From Aureibaculum algae (GTDB lineage Bacteria > Bacteroidota > Bacteroidia > Flavobacteriales > Flavobacteriaceae): 64,000 nucleotides of DNA. Where the stretch lies: NCBI RefSeq assembly GCF_006065315.1, contig NZ_CP040749.1, positions 2,432,501-2,496,500 of the forward strand. Direction: 5' to 3'. The position numbers and the translations under genes are program-made. The notes beneath the pieces were generated by a model, which saw nothing but the letters and a program-made list of their open reading frames with translations, did not search any database and was not told the origin of the DNA. Each line of letters begins with the position of its first letter. Position 1 is the first letter of the stretch. Below, piece by piece: positions 52,618 through 64,000 of the stretch.

Positions 52618-53934
52618 ATGACAAAAAAAAGTATGAAAGAAACTAAAATTGCAATAATAGGTTTAGGATACGTAGGTTTACCATTAGCGGTAGAATTTGC
52701 AAAGAAATACCAAGTCGTAGGGTTTGATATCAATACTAAGAGAATTAATGAGTTAAGAGGAAATAATGACTTTACGTTGGAAACTTCTTCCGAGGAGCTA
52801 GAAGGGGTGAACGTTACTTCGTTGGATGGTTTAAAAGGTTCAAAAACGGGACTTTGGCTTACGGATAACCTTTCAGATATTGAAATGGCAAACTTTTATG
52901 TGGTTACGGTACCAACTCCAGTAGATAAGAGTAATAGACCTGACTTAACACCTTTATATAAAGCAAGTGAAACGGTAGGTAACGTATTGTCTAAAGATGA
53001 TGTAGTGGTTTATGAATCAACCGTTTTTCCAGGAGCAACGGAAGATGAATGTATTCCAATTTTAGAAAAAGTTTCAGGCTTAGTTTATAATAAAGACTTT
53101 TATGCTGGGTATTCACCAGAAAGAATAAATCCGGGAGATAAATTACATACGGTTACTAAAATTTTAAAAGTGACTTCTGGCTCAACACCAGAAATTGCGA
53201 CCTATGTAGATAATGTCTATAAATCGATTATTGTTGCCGGAACGCATTTAGCCCCATCTATTAAAGTGGCTGAAGCGGCTAAAGTAATAGAAAATTCACA
53301 ACGCGATATCAATATAGCATTTGTGAATGAGTTGTCTAAAATATTTCGATTAATGGGTATTGATACACTAGAAGTGTTAGAGGCGGCCGGAACAAAATGG
53401 AATTTCTTACCATTTAGACCGGGCTTAGTAGGAGGGCATTGTATTGGTGTAGACCCCTATTATTTAGCTCAAAAAGCCATGGAATTAGGATATAATCCTG
53501 AAATTATATTAGCGGGTAGACGCTTAAATGACAGTATGGGACCTTTTGTAGCACAAGAGTCTGTAAAAATGATGATTAAAAAAGGAATCCCTATCAAAGG
53601 ATCTAATGTATTGGTATTGGGAATTACTTTTAAAGAAGACTGTCCTGATATTAGAAATTCAAGAGCCATTGATATTGTTCGCGAATTTGAATCATTTGAA
53701 GTAAATATAGATGTTTATGATCCTTGGGCTACTGCTGCAGAAGTTAAACATGAATATGGAATTGATTTAATCGTCAATGAAAGTGATATTAAGAAAAAAT
53801 ATGATGGTGTAATAATAGCCGTTTCTCATAAGGAATTTAAAGTGTTAGACCTTTCAAATTATTGTGCAGATGATCATATTGTTTTTGACGTAAAAGCAAC
53901 ATTACCGAAGGATAAGTCGGATAGTAGGTTGTAA
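52618..53934 (+). CDS. tviB: UDP-N-acetylhexosamine 6-dehydrogenase (TviB/VipA type)
   Basis: A 438-residue NAD enzyme oxidising a UDP-HexNAc to the uronic acid. Motifs: KIAIIGLGYVGLPLAVEFAK (NAD fold), VVTVPTPVDKSNRPDLTPL, YESTVFPGATEDE, and the catalytic Cys in GGHCIGVDPYYLAQKA (about residue 271). The C-terminal domain has LGITFKEDCPDIRNSRAIDI. ATG 52618 is used here; an ATG 5 codons later (MKETKIAIIG) is equally plausible. It supplies a charged sugar for the surface polysaccharide. Confidence 0.94.
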   Translation: MTKKSMKETKIAIIGLGYVGLPLAVEFAKKYQVVGFDINTKRINELRGNNDFTLETSSEELEGVNVTSLDGLKGSKTGLWLTDNLSDIEMANFYVVTVPTPVDKSNRPDLTPLYKASETVGNVLSKDDVVVYESTVFPGATEDECIPILEKVSGLVYNKDFYAGYSPERINPGDKLHTVTKILKVTSGSTPEIATYVDNVYKSIIVAGTHLAPSIKVAEAAKVIENSQRDINIAFVNELSKIFRLMGIDTLEVLEAAGTKWNFLPFRPGLVGGHCIGVDPYYLAQKAMELGYNPEIILAGRRLNDSMGPFVAQESVKMMIKKGIPIKGSNVLVLGITFKEDCPDIRNSRAIDIVREFESFEVNIDVYDPWATAAEVKHEYGIDLIVNESDIKKKYDGVIIAVSHKEFKVLDLSNYCADDHIVFDVKATLPKDKSDSRL

Positions 53935-54547: not shown

Positions 54548-55603
54548 ATGATTAACAAAAAAGAAAAGGTCCTCGTAACCGGAGCAGCAGGCTTCATAGG
54601 CTACCATTTATCTAAATTATTGACAAAAAATGGGTATGATGTTGTTGGTATAGATAATATAAATGACTATTACGACCAAAACTTAAAATATGCGAGGCTT
54701 GAAGATTTAGGAATAGCACGAGATAAAATTGCAGACAATGTTCCGGTGAAAGGAGACATTACTTTTGTAAAGTTAGATTTACAAGACAAAGAAAATCTGA
54801 TGGAACTTTTTAAGCGTGAAAAGTTTGATTTTGTGGTTAATTTAGCAGCTCAGGCTGGGGTGCGATATTCTATTGAGAATCCTCAAACCTATATAGACAA
54901 TAATATTACTGGTTTTTTAAATATCTTAGAAGGTTGTCGGAATTATCCAGTAAAACATTTAGTCTATGCATCATCAAGTTCTGTTTATGGATTGAGTGAA
55001 GAAATTCCTTTTTCAGTAGATAGTCATACGGATCATCCTATGGCAATCTATGCGGCCAGTAAAAAAGCCAATGAAATGATGGCCCATTCGTATTCACATT
55101 TATTTGGAATTCCAAGTACAGGCTTACGTTTCTTTACCGTGTATGGCCCAATGGGAAGACCTGATATGGCGTTGTATTTATTTACTAAAGCAATTGTAGA
55201 AGACAAGGAGTTTGATGTATATAATCATGGAAACATGAGTAGAGATTTTACGTATGTAGCTGATATTGTAGAGAGTATTAAAAGATTACTACCCTTAGCT
55301 CCAATGGCTAACAATCCTAATTTTGACCCTAAAAAACCAAAACCATCTTCAAGTACAGCTCCTTATCAACTCTTTAATATTGGTAATAATAGTCCGGTTC
55401 AATTGATGGATTTTGTTAAAGGCGTAGAAAAGGCATTAAACAAAAAGGGTAAGATTAATTTAAAACCAATTCAGCCGGGTGATGTACCAAGTACCTACGC
55501 TAATGTTGAAAGTTTATTTGATTACATCGATTTTAAACCATCAACCCCCATTCAAGAAGGTATTGATGCCTTTGTGGCAAAGTATTTGGAAATGAATACA
55601 TAA
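54548..55603 (+). CDS. NAD-dependent sugar epimerase (UDP-glucuronate 4-epimerase-like)
   Basis: A 351-residue extended SDR. The cofactor motif is VLVTGAAGFIGYHLSKLL, and DNINDYYDQNLKYARLEDLG is typical of UDP-glucuronate 4-epimerases. Catalytic Ser/Tyr/Lys lie in YASSSSVYG and IYAASKKANE. The C-terminal half has the substrate loop GRPDMALYLFTKAI and FTYVADIVESI. It epimerises a UDP-uronic acid made by the dehydrogenase upstream or a related sugar. It starts just after D element copy 2. Confidence 0.92.
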   Translation: MINKKEKVLVTGAAGFIGYHLSKLLTKNGYDVVGIDNINDYYDQNLKYARLEDLGIARDKIADNVPVKGDITFVKLDLQDKENLMELFKREKFDFVVNLAAQAGVRYSIENPQTYIDNNITGFLNILEGCRNYPVKHLVYASSSSVYGLSEEIPFSVDSHTDHPMAIYAASKKANEMMAHSYSHLFGIPSTGLRFFTVYGPMGRPDMALYLFTKAIVEDKEFDVYNHGNMSRDFTYVADIVESIKRLLPLAPMANNPNFDPKKPKPSSSTAPYQLFNIGNNSPVQLMDFVKGVEKALNKKGKINLKPIQPGDVPSTYANVESLFDYIDFKPSTPIQEGIDAFVAKYLEMNT

Positions 55604-55792: not shown

Positions 55793-57538
55793 GTGAAAGT
55801 AAGAGCCATTATTCAAGCAAGAATGCTTAGTAAAAGATTACGAGGAAAATCTTTAATGTCAGTTAATGAAATCCCATTACTTTATAGAGTAATAAATTCT
55901 GTAAAAAACCTTGATTTTATAGATGAAATTATGGTAGCTACCACAGATTTAATTGCTGATGACCCTCTAGAAGCGGCAGTTAAAGAATTAGATGTTTCAA
56001 TTTTTAGAGGAGATGCCTTAGATGTATTGAATCGTTTTGTTGAAGCAAGTAATGATTTAAATGAGCATGATGTTATAGTTCGTTTTACGGCTGACAATCC
56101 TTTGTATACTTCAGAAATTTCCAAATTGGCCTTCCAAAGTCATGTGGAAGGAAAAGTAGATTACACTCATGTTGATGGCTTATCGCATATTGTTCCTGAA
56201 TTTTTTAATGTAGGTGCCATTCGCGAAGCACAAGAGTTAACGAGATCATCTTTTGATAGAGAACACGTAACTCCCTTTTTTAGAAAGAATCCTAATTCCT
56301 TTGCTATTTTAGAATTACCTAATGATTTTAAAGGCTTGCGTCCTGATTTAGATGCGTATTTAACTATTGATACAAATGATCAACTAAATGCATTTGAAGA
56401 AATGCTGACCGCTACTAAATTTGATATAAAAGAGCTTAGTTTAAAGGAGCTGTATACCTATTTAGATGGAATAAAACATACGCCAAAAGCTACAAAACAA
56501 AGAATTAAATTAGACAAAACTTGGGTAGGAGAAGAATATCCTACCTATATCATTGCAGAGATAGGTCAAAACCATAACGGAGAAGTTCGGTTAGCTAAAA
56601 AGTTAATTGATATGTCCGTTGATGCAGGAGCAAGTGCTGTAAAATTTCAAAAAAGAGACATTCCTTCTGAGTTAACAAAAGAAGCTTTCGATAAACCTTA
56701 TGATAACCCAAATTCTTTTGGGGTAACCTACGGAGAACATAGAATGTTTTTGGAGTTAGATGAAGCACAGCATTTAGAATTAAAAGAATATGCCTCTGCA
56801 AAGGGGATCACTTACTTTTGTACGCCCTGTGATGTACCCTCAGTAGATTTGTTAGAGCGTATCGATTGTCCTTTTTACAAAATAGCATCAAGAGATTTAA
56901 CGAATATACCGTTATTAGAAGCCTTAGGTAAAACAGGTAAACCTGTAATCATATCAACAGGTATGGCGAGTATTGAAGATATAGATGCTGGTATAGAGGC
57001 ATTGCAATTGGGTAAGGATAAATTAATGATTTTGCAATGTACGTCTCAATACCCATGTGCATTAGAAAATGTGAATCTTAAAGTAATGGATACACTGAAA
57101 GAACGTTACGGATTAATTACCGGATTTTCTGACCATACATCAGGTGTTGTTGTTTCGACGGCTGCTGCTGTTATGGGGGCTGCGATAATTGAAAAACACG
57201 TTACTTTAGATAGAACCATGAAAGGTACAGATCAACCGGGGTCACTTGAAAGATCAGGACTTAATAAATTGGTTGAATACATTAGAGCTACTGAAATTGC
57301 TATAGGAGACGGACTGAAAGAGGTAAACCCTGCCACGGCAGCTGCTAAAGTTAAATTAGCGAGAAGTGTTACTAGTAAAGTTGATATCAAAAAAGGAGAT
57401 GTACTAACGGATGAAATGATCTGTTTAAAATCACCCGGAGATGGAATCAAATGGAATGATAGAGCTATAATTGTAGGTAAAAAAGCGATAAAAAATATTG
57501 AAGCAGATGTAACGCTTACGGTTGAGGACTTTGAATAA
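55793..57538 (+). CDS. Fused SpsF-type cytidylyltransferase and NeuB-type nonulosonate synthase
   Basis: A 581-residue protein with a GTG start. Residues 1-225 are a cytidylyltransferase of the SpsF/NeuA-like family (RAIIQARMLSKRLRGKSLM; VRFTADNPLYTSEI; LTIDTNDQL). Residues 250-505 are a NeuB/SpsE-type synthase (IIAEIGQNHNGEVRLAKKLI; KFQKRDIP; FYKIASRDLTN; STGMASIEDI; GFSDHTSGV; EKHVTLDRTMKGTDQPGSLE). Residues 523-581 are the SAF antifreeze-like domain. The chain would condense a hexosamine with phosphoenolpyruvate and then activate the product with CTP. The reverse order of pathway steps along the chain is unusual. Confidence 0.93.
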   Translation: MKVRAIIQARMLSKRLRGKSLMSVNEIPLLYRVINSVKNLDFIDEIMVATTDLIADDPLEAAVKELDVSIFRGDALDVLNRFVEASNDLNEHDVIVRFTADNPLYTSEISKLAFQSHVEGKVDYTHVDGLSHIVPEFFNVGAIREAQELTRSSFDREHVTPFFRKNPNSFAILELPNDFKGLRPDLDAYLTIDTNDQLNAFEEMLTATKFDIKELSLKELYTYLDGIKHTPKATKQRIKLDKTWVGEEYPTYIIAEIGQNHNGEVRLAKKLIDMSVDAGASAVKFQKRDIPSELTKEAFDKPYDNPNSFGVTYGEHRMFLELDEAQHLELKEYASAKGITYFCTPCDVPSVDLLERIDCPFYKIASRDLTNIPLLEALGKTGKPVIISTGMASIEDIDAGIEALQLGKDKLMILQCTSQYPCALENVNLKVMDTLKERYGLITGFSDHTSGVVVSTAAAVMGAAIIEKHVTLDRTMKGTDQPGSLERSGLNKLVEYIRATEIAIGDGLKEVNPATAAAKVKLARSVTSKVDIKKGDVLTDEMICLKSPGDGIKWNDRAIIVGKKAIKNIEADVTLTVEDFE

Positions 57539-57591: not shown

Positions 57592-57951
57592 ATGGAGGCA
57601 CAATTTAAATTTGAAAAGCTTATAATTTGGCAAAGAGCTATGGATTTTGGTGAAGAAATTCAACAAATAGAGCGGGATTTTCCTAAAAAAGAAATTTATA
57701 ATTTATCTTCACAAATATGTCGGGCAGCTGATTCCATAGCATTGAACATATCTGAGGGGGCGATTTTACAATCAAAACTTGAATTCAAAAAATTTATGGG
57801 TTATTCTATTCGCTCTTTGGCTGAAGTAGTGAGTTGTTTACATAAAGCAAAAAGACGAGAATATATTACTGAAAAGCAATTTAAAGATTTATATGAAGAA
57901 TCATTTAATATTATGAATATGATGATTTCTTTTAGAAGTAAAATTAGATAG
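57592..57951 (+). CDS. Four-helix-bundle protein (S23/rRNA intervening sequence family)
   Basis: A 119-residue predicted all-helical protein: FEKLIIWQRAMDFGEEI, LSSQICRAADSIALNISEGA (residues about 38-57, with the conserved NISEG), EFKKFMGYSIRSLAEVVS and a C-terminal helix with FNIMNMMISFRSKI. These are the marks of the S23/IVS family, first found inside 23S rRNA insertions and common as single genes in Bacteroidota. The function is unknown. It is inserted between two sugar-biosynthesis genes and flanked by its typical simple repeats. Confidence 0.88.
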   Translation: MEAQFKFEKLIIWQRAMDFGEEIQQIERDFPKKEIYNLSSQICRAADSIALNISEGAILQSKLEFKKFMGYSIRSLAEVVSCLHKAKRREYITEKQFKDLYEESFNIMNMMISFRSKIR

Positions 57952-58636
<685 letters not shown>

Positions 58637-58644
58637 TATCGTTA

Positions 58645-59385
58645 ATGACTGGAATCATTATACAAGCAAGAAAAGGATCTACAAGATTACCCAATAAGAT
58701 GGTATTACCTTTTTATCAAGAAAAAGGAGTATTAGAATTATTGATTGAAAAATTAACAACACATTTTCCGACTAATAAAATAGTATTGGCAACTACCAAT
58801 AACCCTTTAGATGATGAATTAGTCAATATCGCAGAAAATCACAAAATTCAATATTATAGAGGAAGTGAAAATAATGTGTTAGAACGTTTTATAAATGCTG
58901 CTGTTAAGCATAATTTGAAAACAGTAGTTAGAATTTGTGCCGACAATCCATTTTTGGAAATGGAACATATTTTCAAATTTATCGATGAAATAGAAAGTGA
59001 AAACGCGGATTATGTCAGCTATAAATTACCAAATGGACTGCCAACAATTAAATCTCACTTAGGTTTATTTACTGAAATCGTTTCTTTAAAGGCTTTACAG
59101 AAGGTGAATAAAAGTACTTCCTTATCTTTGTATCAAGAACATGTTACTAATTATATTTATGAACATCCTGAAGAATTTAAAATTAAATTGATAGAAATGC
59201 CAAATTATATGGACGATACAGAAAATATACGGTTAACTCTAGATACTATTGAAGATTTTAAATTAGAGCAGCAATTATATCATGAAATGAAGGGTGAATC
59301 TATTGAACATTTGGTAAATTATTTGAAAAAAAACCAAAGGTTACAGCAACAAATGCAGCAAGAAATAAGTAAACACACAAAGTAG
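58645..59385 (+). CDS. Second SpsF-like cytidylyltransferase
   Basis: A 246-residue stand-alone protein of the same family as the N-terminal half of the fusion: MTGIIIQARKGSTRLPNKMV (nucleotide-binding loop), KIVLATTNNPLDDELV, RICADNPFLEMEHI, and YMDDTENIRLTLDTIEDF. A predicted role is CMP activation of a second acid sugar, or a regulatory or redundant copy. It ends with a Gln-rich tail (RLQQQMQQEI). It starts 8 bp after the phosphatase gene. Confidence 0.88.
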   Translation: MTGIIIQARKGSTRLPNKMVLPFYQEKGVLELLIEKLTTHFPTNKIVLATTNNPLDDELVNIAENHKIQYYRGSENNVLERFINAAVKHNLKTVVRICADNPFLEMEHIFKFIDEIESENADYVSYKLPNGLPTIKSHLGLFTEIVSLKALQKVNKSTSLSLYQEHVTNYIYEHPEEFKIKLIEMPNYMDDTENIRLTLDTIEDFKLEQQLYHEMKGESIEHLVNYLKKNQRLQQQMQQEISKHTK

Positions 59386-59418: not shown

Positions 59419-60966
59419 ATGAATCTTTATTCAATCTTTAATAATTCAAAGCAAAATTATCCAAATAATATCGCTTTAATGGTAGATAAAATACCCTATA
59501 GTTATAAAAAACTTAGCGTAATTATAGGTGAAATTTCCAATGAACTTTTGAAGTCTGATGGAAATCAAGTTGCATTATTGGCACATAAAAGTGTTGTGGC
59601 CTATGCTGGTTTGTTAGCTGCTTTGAAATCTGGAAAAACATATGTTCCGTTAAACCCAAAGTTTCCAAATAGTAGAAATAAAAAGATTATTTCATTGTCA
59701 GAATCAAGTGTTGTTATTGTAGATAATAGATGTATCAAATCATTAATTGAATTATTACCACTATTAAATGAACCCATAACTTTTATTTTTCCAGAAACTC
59801 AAAAAGAGAATATTCCTGAAATTGCTTCCCATCATTTTGTCGTGTCAAAGGAAGATTTAACTAAAGAAAATGATATTATTGTTGATGTAGAAAAAGATCA
59901 TTTGGCTTATCTATTATTTACTTCGGGTAGTACAGGCGTACCTAAAGGAGTTCCAATTAGCCATAATAATGTATTGAGTTATACGGAATATATGTATAAT
60001 AGATATGATGTATTACCTACGGATAGATTTTCACATGTACCTGATTTAACTTTTGATTTAAGTGTGCACGATTTATATTTGTCATTTAGAGGAGGTGCTG
60101 GTTTGTATTGTGTGCCAGACAATGTAGTGATGGCACCTGCAAAATTTATCAATACGCACCAACTTACATTTTGGTGTTCTGTACCATCATTAGTTCAAAT
60201 TATGGGGAGGTTTAAAATGCTGAAACCCAGTAATTTTCCATCCATACGTTGGAGTATGTTTTGTGGAGAGCCGCTTCCTAAAAATGTAGCAATACAATGG
60301 CAAGGAGCAGCTGTTAACACACAAATTGATAACGTTTATGGTCCTACGGAAACCACAGTATCCATAACTTACTATGTGTTGCCTAAAAAAGCTGAAGATA
60401 TTAAAGAAAAGAATGGAGTGGTTTGTATTGGTACTGTATTTGACACGCAAGAGTTATGTTTGGTTGACGAAAATGATATTCCAAACGATGTTACCGGCGA
60501 AATTTGTTTGTCGGGTAGTCAAGTAGCCAAAGGGTATTGGAAGGATGAAGAAAACACGGCTAAACAATTTGTTAAGCTCGAAGGTAAAGGGGATAGAATT
60601 TGGTATAAAACAGGTGATATTGCCAAATATGAAGATGGTTTTTTATTCTACATGGCTAGAAAAGATTTTCAAGTAAAAATTAGAGGATATCGCATTGAAT
60701 TAGATGAAATTAATGATGCTATTGCCAAATTGATTGAAAAAACGATGGTTTATACAATTCCCCATCCTGTTGTTAATGGAATTGCGGATAATTTATATAC
60801 TTTTGTGGAGGGTGATTCTGAAATGTCAAAAAAAGATATTTTACTGGCTTTGGGTAAAATTTTGCCTACCTATATGTTGCCAAGAGATATTTTTTTCATA
60901 GCTGAATTTCCACTAAATATGAATGGAAAAGTAGATCGTAAAAAATTAATTGAAAAAATAATATAA
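59419..60966 (+). CDS. Stand-alone adenylation enzyme (NRPS/DltA-like)
   Basis: A 515-residue ANL-superfamily protein. Motif A3 is LLFTSGSTGVPKG (residues 165-177), A4 is in DLTFDLSVHDLYLS (binding-pocket Asp213), A5 is NVYGPTETTVS, A7 is WYKTGDIA, A8 is KIRGYRIELDEI, and the catalytic Lys is near the end in MNGKVDRKK (Lys504). Size and the lack of condensation or thiolation domains resemble DltA, which loads D-alanine on a separate carrier protein. The next gene, overlapping by 1 base, is that carrier. Substrate unknown; the Asp at A4 argues for an amino acid or a similar ammonium-bearing acid. Confidence 0.9.
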   Translation: MNLYSIFNNSKQNYPNNIALMVDKIPYSYKKLSVIIGEISNELLKSDGNQVALLAHKSVVAYAGLLAALKSGKTYVPLNPKFPNSRNKKIISLSESSVVIVDNRCIKSLIELLPLLNEPITFIFPETQKENIPEIASHHFVVSKEDLTKENDIIVDVEKDHLAYLLFTSGSTGVPKGVPISHNNVLSYTEYMYNRYDVLPTDRFSHVPDLTFDLSVHDLYLSFRGGAGLYCVPDNVVMAPAKFINTHQLTFWCSVPSLVQIMGRFKMLKPSNFPSIRWSMFCGEPLPKNVAIQWQGAAVNTQIDNVYGPTETTVSITYYVLPKKAEDIKEKNGVVCIGTVFDTQELCLVDENDIPNDVTGEICLSGSQVAKGYWKDEENTAKQFVKLEGKGDRIWYKTGDIAKYEDGFLFYMARKDFQVKIRGYRIELDEINDAIAKLIEKTMVYTIPHPVVNGIADNLYTFVEGDSEMSKKDILLALGKILPTYMLPRDIFFIAEFPLNMNGKVDRKKLIEKII

Positions 60967-61220
60967 TGAGTACAATTATAAATAGAGACAGTTTATTAGA
61001 ATTGCTATCAACACGGTTACAACTGTTAGAGATAGAAAAGGGAGATGTTGATACTGAACAAAGTCTGTTTGAACAAGGTATTTTAGATTCCTTATCTTTT
61101 CTAGAATTTGCAGTAGAAATTGAAGGTAAATATGATATTGAGTTGGATTTTAGTGAATTAGAACCGACAGAGTTTAACTCAATTGAAAAATTGAGTAAAA
61201 TAATAGAAAATGCAAATTGA
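60966..61220 (+). CDS. Acyl/peptidyl carrier protein
   Basis: An 84-residue carrier protein with the phosphopantetheine site GILDSLSFLEFAVEIE (Ser42). The rest is acidic and predicted four-helical, ending in LSKIIENAN. It starts within the stop of the adenylation gene (TAATG) and overlaps the GNAT gene by 11 nt. The pair resembles DltA-DltC, so the activated group is expected to be a thioester on Ser42 and to be passed to an acceptor, presumably a sugar. Confidence 0.9.
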   Translation: MSTIINRDSLLELLSTRLQLLEIEKGDVDTEQSLFEQGILDSLSFLEFAVEIEGKYDIELDFSELEPTEFNSIEKLSKIIENAN

Positions 61221-61701
61221 GATTAAACAATTATTTAAAAATGATGCTGATCACGTTTTTGATACTATAAAAAATCAGTTCACAAAACTTTATGGCTATA
61301 TGGAAACCAAAGGGTTGGTGATGCCATTAGTAGAAAATGGATCAGAATTATGGATGAACTCTATAAAATCTACCTTAGGTAAATTAAGTAACATTTATAT
61401 TGCTTATGACAATGAAATCATTATAGGTTTTGTAACAGGTATCATTAGATTGTCTCCTGCTTATTTAGGTAATAAAAAAATTGGTTATTTATCACATCTT
61501 TTTATTAATTCAGCATATAGACGTACAGGGACAGGTGAAAAATTAGCACAAGAAATAGAAGCTTGGTTTAAAGAGAAAAATGTAGATTTAATAGATGTAG
61601 AAGTTATCGTAGATAATGGAAATTCTATTAATTTTTTTAAAAAAATGGGCTATAAAGAAGATATTATTAAGTTAACCAAACATGCAAAGGTACAACAGTA
61701 G
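61210..61701 (+). CDS. GNAT-family N-acetyltransferase
   Basis: A 163-residue protein with the GNAT fold: IAYDNEIIIGFVTGIIRL (beta strands), the acyl-CoA pyrophosphate loop SAYRRTGTGEKLAQEIEAWF (residues about 99-118, RRTGTG) and the last motif DVEVIVDNGNSINFFKKMGY. The usual donor is acetyl-CoA, but the gene's overlap with the carrier protein makes a carrier-bound acyl donor possible. Target is probably an amino sugar of the polysaccharide. Confidence 0.87.
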   Translation: MQIEIKQLFKNDADHVFDTIKNQFTKLYGYMETKGLVMPLVENGSELWMNSIKSTLGKLSNIYIAYDNEIIIGFVTGIIRLSPAYLGNKKIGYLSHLFINSAYRRTGTGEKLAQEIEAWFKEKNVDLIDVEVIVDNGNSINFFKKMGYKEDIIKLTKHAKVQQ

Positions 61702-62467
61702 TCATTTTTACGATGCTTTTTTAAACATAGGACTGCAAAAAGGAGATGTTGTATTGGTACATAATTCTTTATTTTCTTTTGGTATTCCATCAGATTTAAC
61801 TTTAAAAGAGCTCTCAGAATCGATATACGAGCAATTGAGAAAAATTATTGGCGATGAGGGTACAATTGCAGTACCTACTTTTAATTTTGATTACTGTAAA
61901 GGAGCAACTTTTAATAGTGCCAAAACACCTTCTAAAAATATGGGTGTCTTTTCTGAATATGTACGGTTGTTACCTGAAAGTAAGAGAAGTAAACATCCTA
62001 TGCAATCTATTTCGGCGGTGGGGCCAATAGCAGATTTGATCACAAAAGGAGACCCTCAATCTGCATTTGGCGAAAATGGTGCTTTTGATATGTTATTACA
62101 AATTAATGCAAAAATTGTATTGCTAGGGACAGATTATAATGCCGCATCTTTTATTCATTTGGTTGAGGAACGTAACAAAGTGCCGTATCGATATTGGAAG
62201 CCGTTTTCGGCTCCATATGTTATAAATGACAATGTACAAGAACAACGAAGCTATAAAATGTATGTTAGAGATTTAGAGACAAATCCTATTTTAAACATGA
62301 ATTTTATTGAAGAAATTCTTAGAGATAAAAAAACACTCCAAAAAACACAAATCGGCGGTGGTTTTATTCATAGTGTAAAAGCAATGGACTATGTTAGCCT
62401 AGCTGATGAATTGATTAAAAAGAATCCATACTGCTTTGTTAGTAATCATAAAACCGAAGCCAACTAA
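61682..62467 (+). CDS. AAC(3)-like acyltransferase
   Basis: A 261-residue protein of the aminoglycoside 3-N-acetyltransferase superfamily (key segments VLVHNSLFSFGIPSD, GTIAVPTFNFDY, SKRSKHPMQSISAVGP, LLGTDYNAASFIHLVEE). In polysaccharide loci these proteins are thought to acylate sugar amines rather than antibiotics, and no antibiotic-resistance context exists here. It overlaps the GNAT gene by 20 nt and the DUF4910 gene by 1 nt. Confidence 0.87.
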   Translation: MQRYNSSHFYDAFLNIGLQKGDVVLVHNSLFSFGIPSDLTLKELSESIYEQLRKIIGDEGTIAVPTFNFDYCKGATFNSAKTPSKNMGVFSEYVRLLPESKRSKHPMQSISAVGPIADLITKGDPQSAFGENGAFDMLLQINAKIVLLGTDYNAASFIHLVEERNKVPYRYWKPFSAPYVINDNVQEQRSYKMYVRDLETNPILNMNFIEEILRDKKTLQKTQIGGGFIHSVKAMDYVSLADELIKKNPYCFVSNHKTEAN

Positions 62468-63747
62468 TGCAGAAGCAATTAGAAACCTATTTTGATAGAT
62501 TATGGCCTATTAACCGAAGTTTAACGGGTGATGGTAATAGAAAAACACTGGATATTCTATCTGAAATAATTCCATTAAATGTACACGAGGTTCCTTCAGG
62601 TACAGCATGTTTTGATTGGAATGTACCACCAGAGTGGAATGTTCAAGAAGCGTGGATTAAAGACGAAAAAGACAATACTATTGTCAATTTTAAAGTTAAT
62701 AATTTACATCTATTGGGCTATTCTGAGCCGTTCGAAGGCGTTTTGAGTTATGAGGAACTTAAAGAACATTTATACACCTTACCAAAGCAACCTGATTTAA
62801 TACCATATTTAACATCGTATTACAGTAAAAGATGGGGATTCTGTATGTCGCATCATCAGTTTGAAAAACTAGATAAAAATGGTTCCTATACTGTAAAAAT
62901 AGATAGTACTTTAGATGAACATGGATCTATGACCTATGGCGACTTGGTGTTAAAAGGTAAATCAGATAAAGAAATATTATTAACCACATATATTTGTCAT
63001 CCTTCCATGGCAAATAATGAATTGTCAGGACCATTGGTTACGGCATTTATTTACAACCAATTAAAAGACAAGGATAATTACTATTCTTATCGTTTTGTTT
63101 TTGCACCAGAAACCATTGGTAGTATTTATTATTTATCTCAACATGGGGATCATTTTAAGCAAAACATGGAAGCTGGTTTTGTGGTAACTTGCGTAGGTGA
63201 CGATGGTCAGTTTACCTATAAAAAAAGTAGAAGAGGTGATAGTTTACCAGATAGAGCAGTTAATACCGTTTTAAAACAATCTGAATCTGAATTTAGAACG
63301 ATTCCTTTTGCCCCAAGAGGTTCTGATGAAAGGCAATACTGTTCACCTGGTTTTAATTTACCAGTGGTGTTGTTACTAAGAACTACTTATGGTCAATATG
63401 AAGAGTACCATACTTCTTCAGACGATAAAGATTTCATTAGCTTTGCCGCAATGGAAAAAACCGTTGCAACCTATTTGGAAGTAATTGAATTAATTGAAAA
63501 GAATAAAAAATATATCAATCAATTTCCTAATTGTGAGCCCCAATTGGGTAAAAGAGGTCTATACCCAACCTTATCTGAAAAAGAAAAGGCCATTGAGATA
63601 GATGCTATGATGTGGATTCTCAATTATTCAGACGGTGAACATGACTTACTAGATATTATTGAAAAAAGTGACATAGATTTTAAAATTATGATACGCGTAG
63701 CAGATAAATTAATGGCAAAAGGCATGCTAAAAGTAGAAAAACAATAA
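62467..63747 (+). CDS. DUF4910 aminopeptidase-like protein
   Basis: A 426-residue protein. The N-terminal half has LWPINRSLTGDGNRKTLDIL and VPPEWNVQEAWIKDE, both typical of DUF4910. A metallopeptidase-like core follows with TYICHPSMANNELSGP (His ligand), FAPETIGS (Glu), GSDERQYCSPG and EEYHTSSDDKDF (His/Asp), like the M28 clan. The C-terminal 80 residues are a winged-helix-like domain (MWILNYSDGEHDLLDII). It may hydrolyse an amide, for example to trim the acyl group added by the preceding enzymes. The start overlaps the AAC(3)-like gene. Confidence 0.87.
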   Translation: MQKQLETYFDRLWPINRSLTGDGNRKTLDILSEIIPLNVHEVPSGTACFDWNVPPEWNVQEAWIKDEKDNTIVNFKVNNLHLLGYSEPFEGVLSYEELKEHLYTLPKQPDLIPYLTSYYSKRWGFCMSHHQFEKLDKNGSYTVKIDSTLDEHGSMTYGDLVLKGKSDKEILLTTYICHPSMANNELSGPLVTAFIYNQLKDKDNYYSYRFVFAPETIGSIYYLSQHGDHFKQNMEAGFVVTCVGDDGQFTYKKSRRGDSLPDRAVNTVLKQSESEFRTIPFAPRGSDERQYCSPGFNLPVVLLLRTTYGQYEEYHTSSDDKDFISFAAMEKTVATYLEVIELIEKNKKYINQFPNCEPQLGKRGLYPTLSEKEKAIEIDAMMWILNYSDGEHDLLDIIEKSDIDFKIMIRVADKLMAKGMLKVEKQ

Positions 63748-63757
63748 AACGAAACTA

Positions 63758-64000
63758 ATGAAATTAAAAGATAAAATTAAAATAAGCCTATTTCCAAGTA
63801 TAGTAAGATTTTTACACGCAATTGGGTTTCGTTGGGAGAAGTTGGGTAAACTAACTTTTTTTAACAATAGCGTTTTATTGGCACAGGCCAAATCGTTAGG
63901 TAAGTTTAAAATAGAAAATACGGACAAGCCACAGAATATTTATGTATTATTAATGTTACCGCAAAGCCCTTTTCATTTATATGTTGAAGCACTTTTGGCA
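63758..64000 (+). CDS. Partial protein of the polysaccharide locus
   Basis: Begins with ATG 63758, 10 bp after the DUF4910 gene, and runs out of the window after 81 codons (MKLKDKIKISLFPSIVRFLH at the start; QNIYVLLMLPQSPFHLYVEALLA at the visible end). The visible part has a basic amphipathic N-terminus and a beta strand followed by a helix like the first part of a glycosyltransferase Rossmann fold (YVLLMLPQSPFHLYVEALL). It is probably another biosynthetic gene, but no domain can be named from this length. Confidence 0.65.
   Translation, partial: MKLKDKIKISLFPSIVRFLHAIGFRWEKLGKLTFFNNSVLLAQAKSLGKFKIENTDKPQNIYVLLMLPQSPFHLYVEALLA

Follow-up and report, generated by a model that had tools for sequence, protein, structure and literature searches.

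The 64,000-nt stretch of Aureibaculum algae DNA analysed here (the window; its genome counts 5.17 Mb in a single contig) carries, on the forward strand at positions 59419-63747, a set of five overlapping genes whose products probably attach an activated amino acid to a surface-coat sugar. We propose that they form a carrier-dependent acylation cassette within a surface-polysaccharide locus making a nonulosonate, most likely Kdn. This reading comes from sequence comparison, and the mechanism set out below would hold in full with a probability of about 0.45.

All five open reading frames (ORFs) are intact and start with ATG, and each product exceeds the cut-off of its Pfam families. Successive ORFs were computed to overlap by 1, 11, 20 and 1 nt. 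An earlier note on this DNA had described five overlapping genes with named domains at this place, and its coordinates, overlaps and domains are all confirmed.

59419..60966, + strand: adenylation (A-domain) enzyme, 515 aa (PF00501, 221 bits; TIGR01733, 310 bits)
60966..61220, + strand: carrier protein, 84 aa, phosphopantetheine Ser42 in GILDSL (PF00550, 37.7 bits)
61210..61701, + strand: GNAT N-acetyltransferase, 163 aa (PF00583, 52.9 bits)
61682..62467, + strand: AAC(3)-type acyltransferase, 261 aa (PF02522, 127.5 bits)
62467..63747, + strand: DUF4910 protein, 426 aa, with an M28-like fold lacking the peptidase residues (PF16254, PF09940 and PF16221)

In the proposed mechanism, the adenylation enzyme would activate an alpha-amino acid and load it onto the carrier, and the GNAT would either N-acetylate the carrier-bound amino acid or acetylate an amine of a sugar. 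The AAC(3)-type enzyme, judging from its family and its linkage, would take over the aminoacyl group from the carrier and attach it to a sugar precursor of the locus. The acceptor could be a hydroxyl of a Kdn-type sugar, giving an ester, or an amine on another sugar within the polysaccharide. The DUF4910 protein would help to place the acyl group on the nonulosonate side without proteolysis, perhaps as a non-hydrolytic acyl-exchange or substrate-binding partner, by analogy with Cj1295 of Campylobacter jejuni.

Adenylation enzyme and carrier

The catalytic motifs of the adenylation enzyme are intact (SGSTGVPKG, YGPTE, YKTGD and NGKVDR). Its Asp213 is invariant (26/26 aligned sequences) and aligns with the FDVSVWE segment of EntF, at what we take, from the codes of non-ribosomal peptide synthetases (NRPS), to be the amino-anchoring position. 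Because of these motifs and of an Asp at the amino-binding position, the enzyme is predicted to activate an alpha-amino acid and to load the carrier. Read against EntF at the presumed code positions, its pocket is D-L-H-C-M-C-V-V-S-K, which matches no code known to us, and the amino acid is therefore left unpredicted.

The best family of the enzyme is the amino-acid adenylation domain TIGR01733, with a score narrowly under the cut-off of 317.4 bits. The label "DltA-like", used in the earlier note, is fair, but a true DltA is not supported, as the scores with DltA models (293-297 bits) lie far under their cut-offs of 559.85 and 476 (293 against 559.85 for TIGR01734). As to the carrier, the DSL site noticed earlier is upheld by the PF00550 match and by D41 and S42, both kept in 6/6 aligned carriers, the window's own included.

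This adenylation subfamily is rare. At an E-value of 1e-110 it was found in 2 of 397 genomes sampled from the family, 2 of 395 from the order and 4 of 395 from the phylum, each count including the window genome and that of G011, taken to be Aureibaculum marinum. Among 149 relatives, 25 match at an E-value of 1e-60, and scores above 330 bits are reached only in these two Aureibaculum genomes.

The two acyltransferases

On the basis of its sequence, the AAC(3)-type enzyme is proposed to take the acyl group off the carrier and pass it on to the sugar. Its His159 and Glu162 are invariant in 19/19 sequences and align with a His and a Glu of AAC(3)-IVa. A role of the gene in aminoglycoside resistance was set aside, as the protein scores 77.7 bits with NF033082 against a cut-off of 270 and exceeds only that of the general family PF02522.

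The window GNAT has RRTGTG at residue 104, and its predicted fold (mean pLDDT 82.0) resembles small-amine acetyltransferases. The fold search returned generic amine acetyltransferases at close E-values and is hence not informative about the substrate. The N-capped aminoacyl products that a capping GNAT would give have precedents, since N-acetyl-alanyl amino sugars occur in marine bacterial polysaccharides (PMC3210612) and a pseudaminic acid substituted with N-acetylglutamine has been reported (PMC3068675).

The DUF4910 protein

The protein belongs to the DUF4910 family, with PF16254, PF09940 and PF16221 all above cut-off. In the 120 close proteins compared, the window's included, the catalytic Asp and Glu of M28 peptidases are replaced by Ser180 (120/120) and Pro214 (119/120). 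The same catalytic positions are already replaced in the structure PDB 3k9t (Ser191 and Pro225), whose zinc ligand Asp195 corresponds to Asn184 in 120/120 of the close proteins. With the two catalytic residues lost and a zinc ligand exchanged as well, an active M28 aminopeptidase was rejected, and the trimming or editing by a DUF4910 peptidase that the earlier note had envisaged does not stand.

In the fuller model of that note, an aminoacyl group placed on the amine of a nonulosonic acid is trimmed or edited by DUF4910 working as an amidase. Four other residues of the M28-like site (His178, Glu215, Asp245 and His315) are retained in 119-120/120 close proteins, the window's included. Moreover, Cj1295, for which amide cleavage has been proposed, is needed for a di-O-methylglyceroyl amide at N5 of pseudaminic acid (PMC3068675). 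This model is set against the three replacements just described and against the phosphatase of the locus, which predicts a Kdn free of amine (see below), and we consider it improbable. The preferred role of DUF4910 remains that of a non-proteolytic partner in acyl placement.

DUF4910 proteins split into an Asn184-Glu185 class and an Asp184 class. NeuB lies nearby in 11/12 cases of the former and 4/9 of the latter (p = 0.046, counting the window and A. marinum), a comparison that is uncorrected for kinship and serves as a lead only; without five plasmids picked by their AAC(3) match, the figures are 7/7 and 4/9 (p = 0.034). In other genomes of the phylum, NeuB is present in the stretch around DUF4910 at 9/14 places. 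The plasmid records examined comprised 8 of the 11 with an AAC(3) match (H3, H6 and H10 being left out) and 1 of the 42 DUF4910 records, chosen by that match. The latter, a Qingshengfaniella plasmid chosen regardless of AAC(3), has neither NeuB nor AAC(3) named in its 19 kb.

Conservation and modularity of the cassette

In A. marinum, the five genes are found in identical order, with 83, 82, 77, 76 and 86% identity, and this conserved order excludes a chance arrangement. Partial sets extend further. A genome of another family of the same phylum (G505) has adenylation, carrier, GNAT and AAC(3) genes in the same order (38, 58, 35 and 38% identity). Their contig also bears the same cytidylyltransferase-NeuB fusion, together with a phosphatase of Kdn type (211.1 bits). 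A genome of a third family (G361) has carrier, GNAT, AAC(3) and DUF4910 genes in the window order, near NeuB. In G385, the genes for NeuB, a HAD protein and a cytidylyltransferase are followed by those for AAC(3), DUF4910, a carrier (an ORF read as such from its LDSL motif and named by neither Pfam nor NCBIfam) and another AMP ligase. Two Solidesulfovibrio plasmids show the order adenylation, carrier, a 241-aa protein without Pfam family, and AAC(3). The five genes, which the earlier note suggested looking for elsewhere, are thus found together outside the window genome in A. marinum, of the same genus, with only subsets in G505, G361, G385 and Solidesulfovibrio. The idea that activation, carrier and acyl transfer form one unit is supported, as is the co-occurrence of the genes beyond the window genome.

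In other phyla, too, AAC(3) and DUF4910 genes are neighbours of NeuB and pse genes. In Maritalea (L144:9001-11460), an AAC(3) domain is joined to a part annotated as HAD-IIIC phosphatase, and DUF4910 and NeuB adjoin. In Agrobacterium salinitolerans (L145:8965-12332), an IS3 transposase gene sits between AAC(3) and DUF4910, with pseB, C, F, G, H and I adjoining. In Tritonibacter, an ATP-grasp neighbour could serve as an alternative loading enzyme.

The cassette is real, rare and modular, and, because of the gene order across these genomes, loading enzymes appear interchangeable around a recurring core of AAC(3), DUF4910 and carrier. A more general and rather unlikely possibility is that AAC(3), carrier and peptidase-dead DUF4910 constitute a general acyl-writing core for nonulosonates. 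Its loaders would be an amino-acid adenylation enzyme in the window, another AMP ligase in G385, the HAD-IIIC fusion in Maritalea and the ATP-grasp neighbour in Tritonibacter. In the window, its product would be an aminoacylated Kdn, with the DUF4910 fold as the transacylase. We know of no aminoacylated Kdn from any source, the literature not having been searched for it.

Metagenomic proteins were also compared, the adenylation list comprising the 61 best after the window's own and the DUF4910 list 116 of 119 contig sizes. Of these adenylation proteins, 16/61 share the exact longest-contig size of an AAC(3) relative, against a mean of 0.34 when sizes are shifted by 1-50; a shared size is evidence for a common contig, not for adjacency. 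Six contig sizes, A. marinum's among them, are common to the adenylation, AAC(3) and DUF4910 lists. The adenylation and AAC(3) distance matrices are correlated over 13 pairs outside the Aureibaculum-like ones (r = 0.94; 0/5000 shuffles as high), a correlation that still contains shared species history; this test dropped one of the 16 matched pairs (P0005/P0333, a fragment) and took in the pair of the window itself.

In Francisella sp. 19X1-34, an adenylation protein (P0053, 45%) and a DUF4910 protein (P0165, 67%) share a contig size of 71,327, and the pair seems to be present outside the phylum too.

Several observations weigh against the proposed mechanism. The complete five-gene set has been seen only in the two Aureibaculum genomes, and the five further contig sizes in all three metagenomic lists suggest more such sets while showing neither adjacency nor carrier and GNAT genes. 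The G505 genome has no DUF4910 match, its cassette contig stopping directly after AAC(3), and G361 has no adenylation gene in the 20 kb around its set, the best match elsewhere scoring 268 bits. In G289, the fourth genome with this type of adenylation enzyme (406 bits), the adenylation gene lies about 6 kb from NeuB; carrier, GNAT and AAC(3) are unmatched in the 20 kb around it, and DUF4910 lies about 19 kb away from it, beside a different NeuB. A search of genome contigs found, above 40 bits, 0/80 loci with at least two of the five kinds of gene. These loci are mostly those of distant adenylation relatives (best 44%, next 36%), and the 44% one (L004) has a carrier match of 38 bits. At the level of single steps, capping by the GNAT is the weakest, because its relatives in G505 and G361 have lost part of the coenzyme A motif and because Solidesulfovibrio replaces the GNAT with the protein lacking a Pfam family. 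Finally, AAC(3)-type enzymes are known to act on amines, whereas Kdn has none.

An adenylation relative (35%) on a Vibrio tubiashii plasmid, lying among non-sugar genes, also counts against our reading. Distant relatives are found in NRPS-sized frames and in non-sugar contexts, as might be expected if the five genes served a small peptide-like metabolite or some other pathway and occupied a polysaccharide locus by chance. Since the closer relatives, in A. marinum and G505, again lie among sugar genes, such an explanation is very improbable, and we retain a cassette devoted to acylation of a surface sugar.

The sugar locus and the acceptor

The sugar locus reported in the earlier note is confirmed, a nonulosonate synthase and polysaccharide genes flanking the cassette. 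The other features, the last of which runs into L003, the stretch into which the window DNA continues downstream, are as follows.

52618..53934, + strand: UDP-GlcNAc C-6 dehydrogenase (TviB-like), polysaccharide precursor (NF011729, 573.5 bits, slightly under the cut-off of 592)
54548..55603, + strand: NAD-dependent sugar epimerase/dehydratase (TviC/GalE-like; PF01370, 187.3 bits)
55793..57538, + strand: cytidylyltransferase-NeuB fusion, nonulosonate (9-phosphate) synthase and CMP transferase (PF02348, PF03102 and PF08666)
58049..58636, + strand: HAD phosphatase, predicted Kdn-9-phosphate phosphatase (NF058599)
58645..59385, + strand: separate second cytidylyltransferase (PF02348, 92 bits)
63758..64000, + strand: start of the next locus gene, continuing in L003:1-1359 (83% identity in A. 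marinum)

Further downstream of the cassette are genes for a pyruvyl transferase, a MurJ-type flippase, a hexapeptide acetyltransferase, glycosyltransferases, a Wzy-type protein and an MBOAT protein. The gene directly after DUF4910 has no Pfam family in the 434-aa part scanned, and near NeuB in L129 there is a weak relative of it (28 bits). A small ORF of 119 aa (57592-57951), located between the NeuB fusion and the phosphatase genes, encodes what we take to be a four-helix protein of the 23S-intervening-sequence type, with a weak relative (41 bits) elsewhere in the A. marinum locus.

The fusion is the single NeuB match in the window genome and scores 323.7 bits with TIGR03569, under the cut-off of 399.65. 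The locus phosphatase scores 250.9 bits with NF058599 (cut-off 180), against 94.8 for the other YrbI-type phosphatase of the genome. Because the former passes the cut-off for Kdn-9-phosphatases while its paralogue falls far short, the predicted nonulosonate is most likely Kdn. Despite the single NeuB match, the locus has a separate cytidylyltransferase besides the one fused to NeuB. No Leg/Pse-type 4,6-dehydratase, aminotransferase or hydrolase was recognised in the 10/11 genes scanned between 52618 and 63747. Some 21 kb downstream there are a LegC-like aminotransferase (383.5 bits, cut-off 420) and a PF02719 dehydratase, and no hydrolase was seen among the genes scanned. The G505 genome (95% complete) has no match at an E-value of 0.001 to the sugar aminotransferase model TIGR04181, which matches 13/14 control genomes.

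According to the earlier note, it is the amine of a nonulosonic acid that receives the acyl group. This amine is made less likely by the predicted Kdn and by the lack of a TIGR04181 match in G505. An ester on Kdn, or an amide at another place of the polymer, therefore seems to us at least as likely as an amide on the nonulosonate.

An amide elsewhere is at the centre of another explanation, namely that the target of the cassette is the free amine of a UDP-4-amino-6-deoxy sugar (of bacillosamine or Qui4N type) in the same polysaccharide, the nonulosonate neighbourhood being incidental. By family, AAC(3)-type enzymes acylate amines, and the aminotransferase and dehydratase found 21 kb downstream could supply such a sugar. 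A. marinum also has a LegC-like aminotransferase (373.1 bits), though not on its cassette contig, and marine bacteria have N-acetyl-alanyl and hydroxybutyryl amides of such sugars (PMC3210612). The cassette of G505, in a genome without a TIGR04181 match, and the recurrence of AAC(3) and DUF4910 by NeuB and pse genes in other phyla argue the other way, and this explanation seems to us unlikely.

It was also considered whether the adenylation enzyme and carrier, which resemble DltA and DltC, could feed the DltB-like MBOAT protein about 11 kb downstream, the polymer being acylated outside the membrane by a Dlt-like route. The MBOAT gene (TIGR04091, 145.7 bits, cut-off 375) is followed by a gene for a 290-aa protein without Pfam family (L003:10375-12696). 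In the genomes of A. marinum and G505, only the cassette contigs were searched for the MBOAT; it was unmatched on them, and it was set aside as the acyl outlet. As, moreover, the overlaps of the adenylation and carrier genes are with acyltransferase genes rather than with the MBOAT gene, this route appears quite improbable, and transfer by the AAC(3)-type enzyme is preferred.

Comparison with known systems

Unusual acyl groups on sialic-acid-like sugars alter the appearance of bacteria to phages and hosts, and for many such groups the way of attachment is unsettled, as stated for Campylobacter (PMC3068675). The present cassette is a compact, overlapping marine gene set in which loader, carrier and transferase can each be tested separately, and with it the role of the peptidase-dead DUF4910 family becomes a direct biochemical question. 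Should one transferase core accept different loaders, the diversity of acyl groups could become predictable from the loading gene.

Like the Dlt system (DltA-DltC-DltB-DltD), the cassette has a stand-alone adenylation enzyme and a small carrier, but this pair is far under the DltA and DltC cut-offs and is coupled to two acyltransferases and to DUF4910. In the butirosin route (BtrJ, BtrI, BtrH and BtrG), activation of an amino acid and its transport on a carrier precede transfer to a sugar amine and a later trimming; the logic is similar, with different enzyme families, and a trimming step in the cassette would be hypothetical. Some enzymes with an M28-like fold carry out acyl transfer instead of peptide hydrolysis. 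These enzymes keep the catalytic Asp and Glu (PMC4000134), which DUF4910 does not.

On the sugar side, the Kdn route of Bacteroides thetaiotaomicron uses a NeuB-type synthase, a dedicated Kdn-9-phosphate phosphatase and a cytidylyltransferase (PMC6200933). The window has the same three activities predicted, its synthase differing in being fused to a cytidylyltransferase.

The closest parallels concern DUF4910. In C. jejuni, an N-acyl group of pseudaminic acid depends on Cj1295, a protein described as aminopeptidase-like (PMC3068675), with a DUF2172 domain (PMC6321876). It has also been presented as a putative transferase correlating with pse genes (PMC13130089), and Cj1296/7, listed after it, is named an N-acetyltransferase (PMC3068675). 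By the descriptions in these papers, Cj1295 is of the same family as the window DUF4910 protein and is likewise linked to an unusual acyl group on a nonulosonate. It differs in the acyl group, which at N5 of pseudaminic acid is di-O-methylglyceroyl, and in that no adenylation enzyme is named in the part of the report drawn on here (PMC3068675). CA_C2195 of Clostridium acetobutylicum (PDB 3k9t) is a 46% identical DUF4910 protein, whose locus has NeuB (spsE), a carrier, an aminosugar N-acetyltransferase and an N-acetyltransferase-HAD fusion, and for which transacylation to an amino sugar has already been proposed as one possibility (PMC4000134). Its locus differs by an ATP-grasp ligase, the table given there being without an adenylation enzyme (PMC4000134), and the protein itself by Asp195 in place of Asn184.

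The earlier note knew of no characterised system with this full set. None was found in our searches of the literature, although the link between DUF4910, nonulosonates and acyl groups is itself in print (PMC4000134; PMC3068675). The association of the DUF4910 family with acylated nonulosonates is already published, and it is the adenylation-loaded form of such a system that is new.

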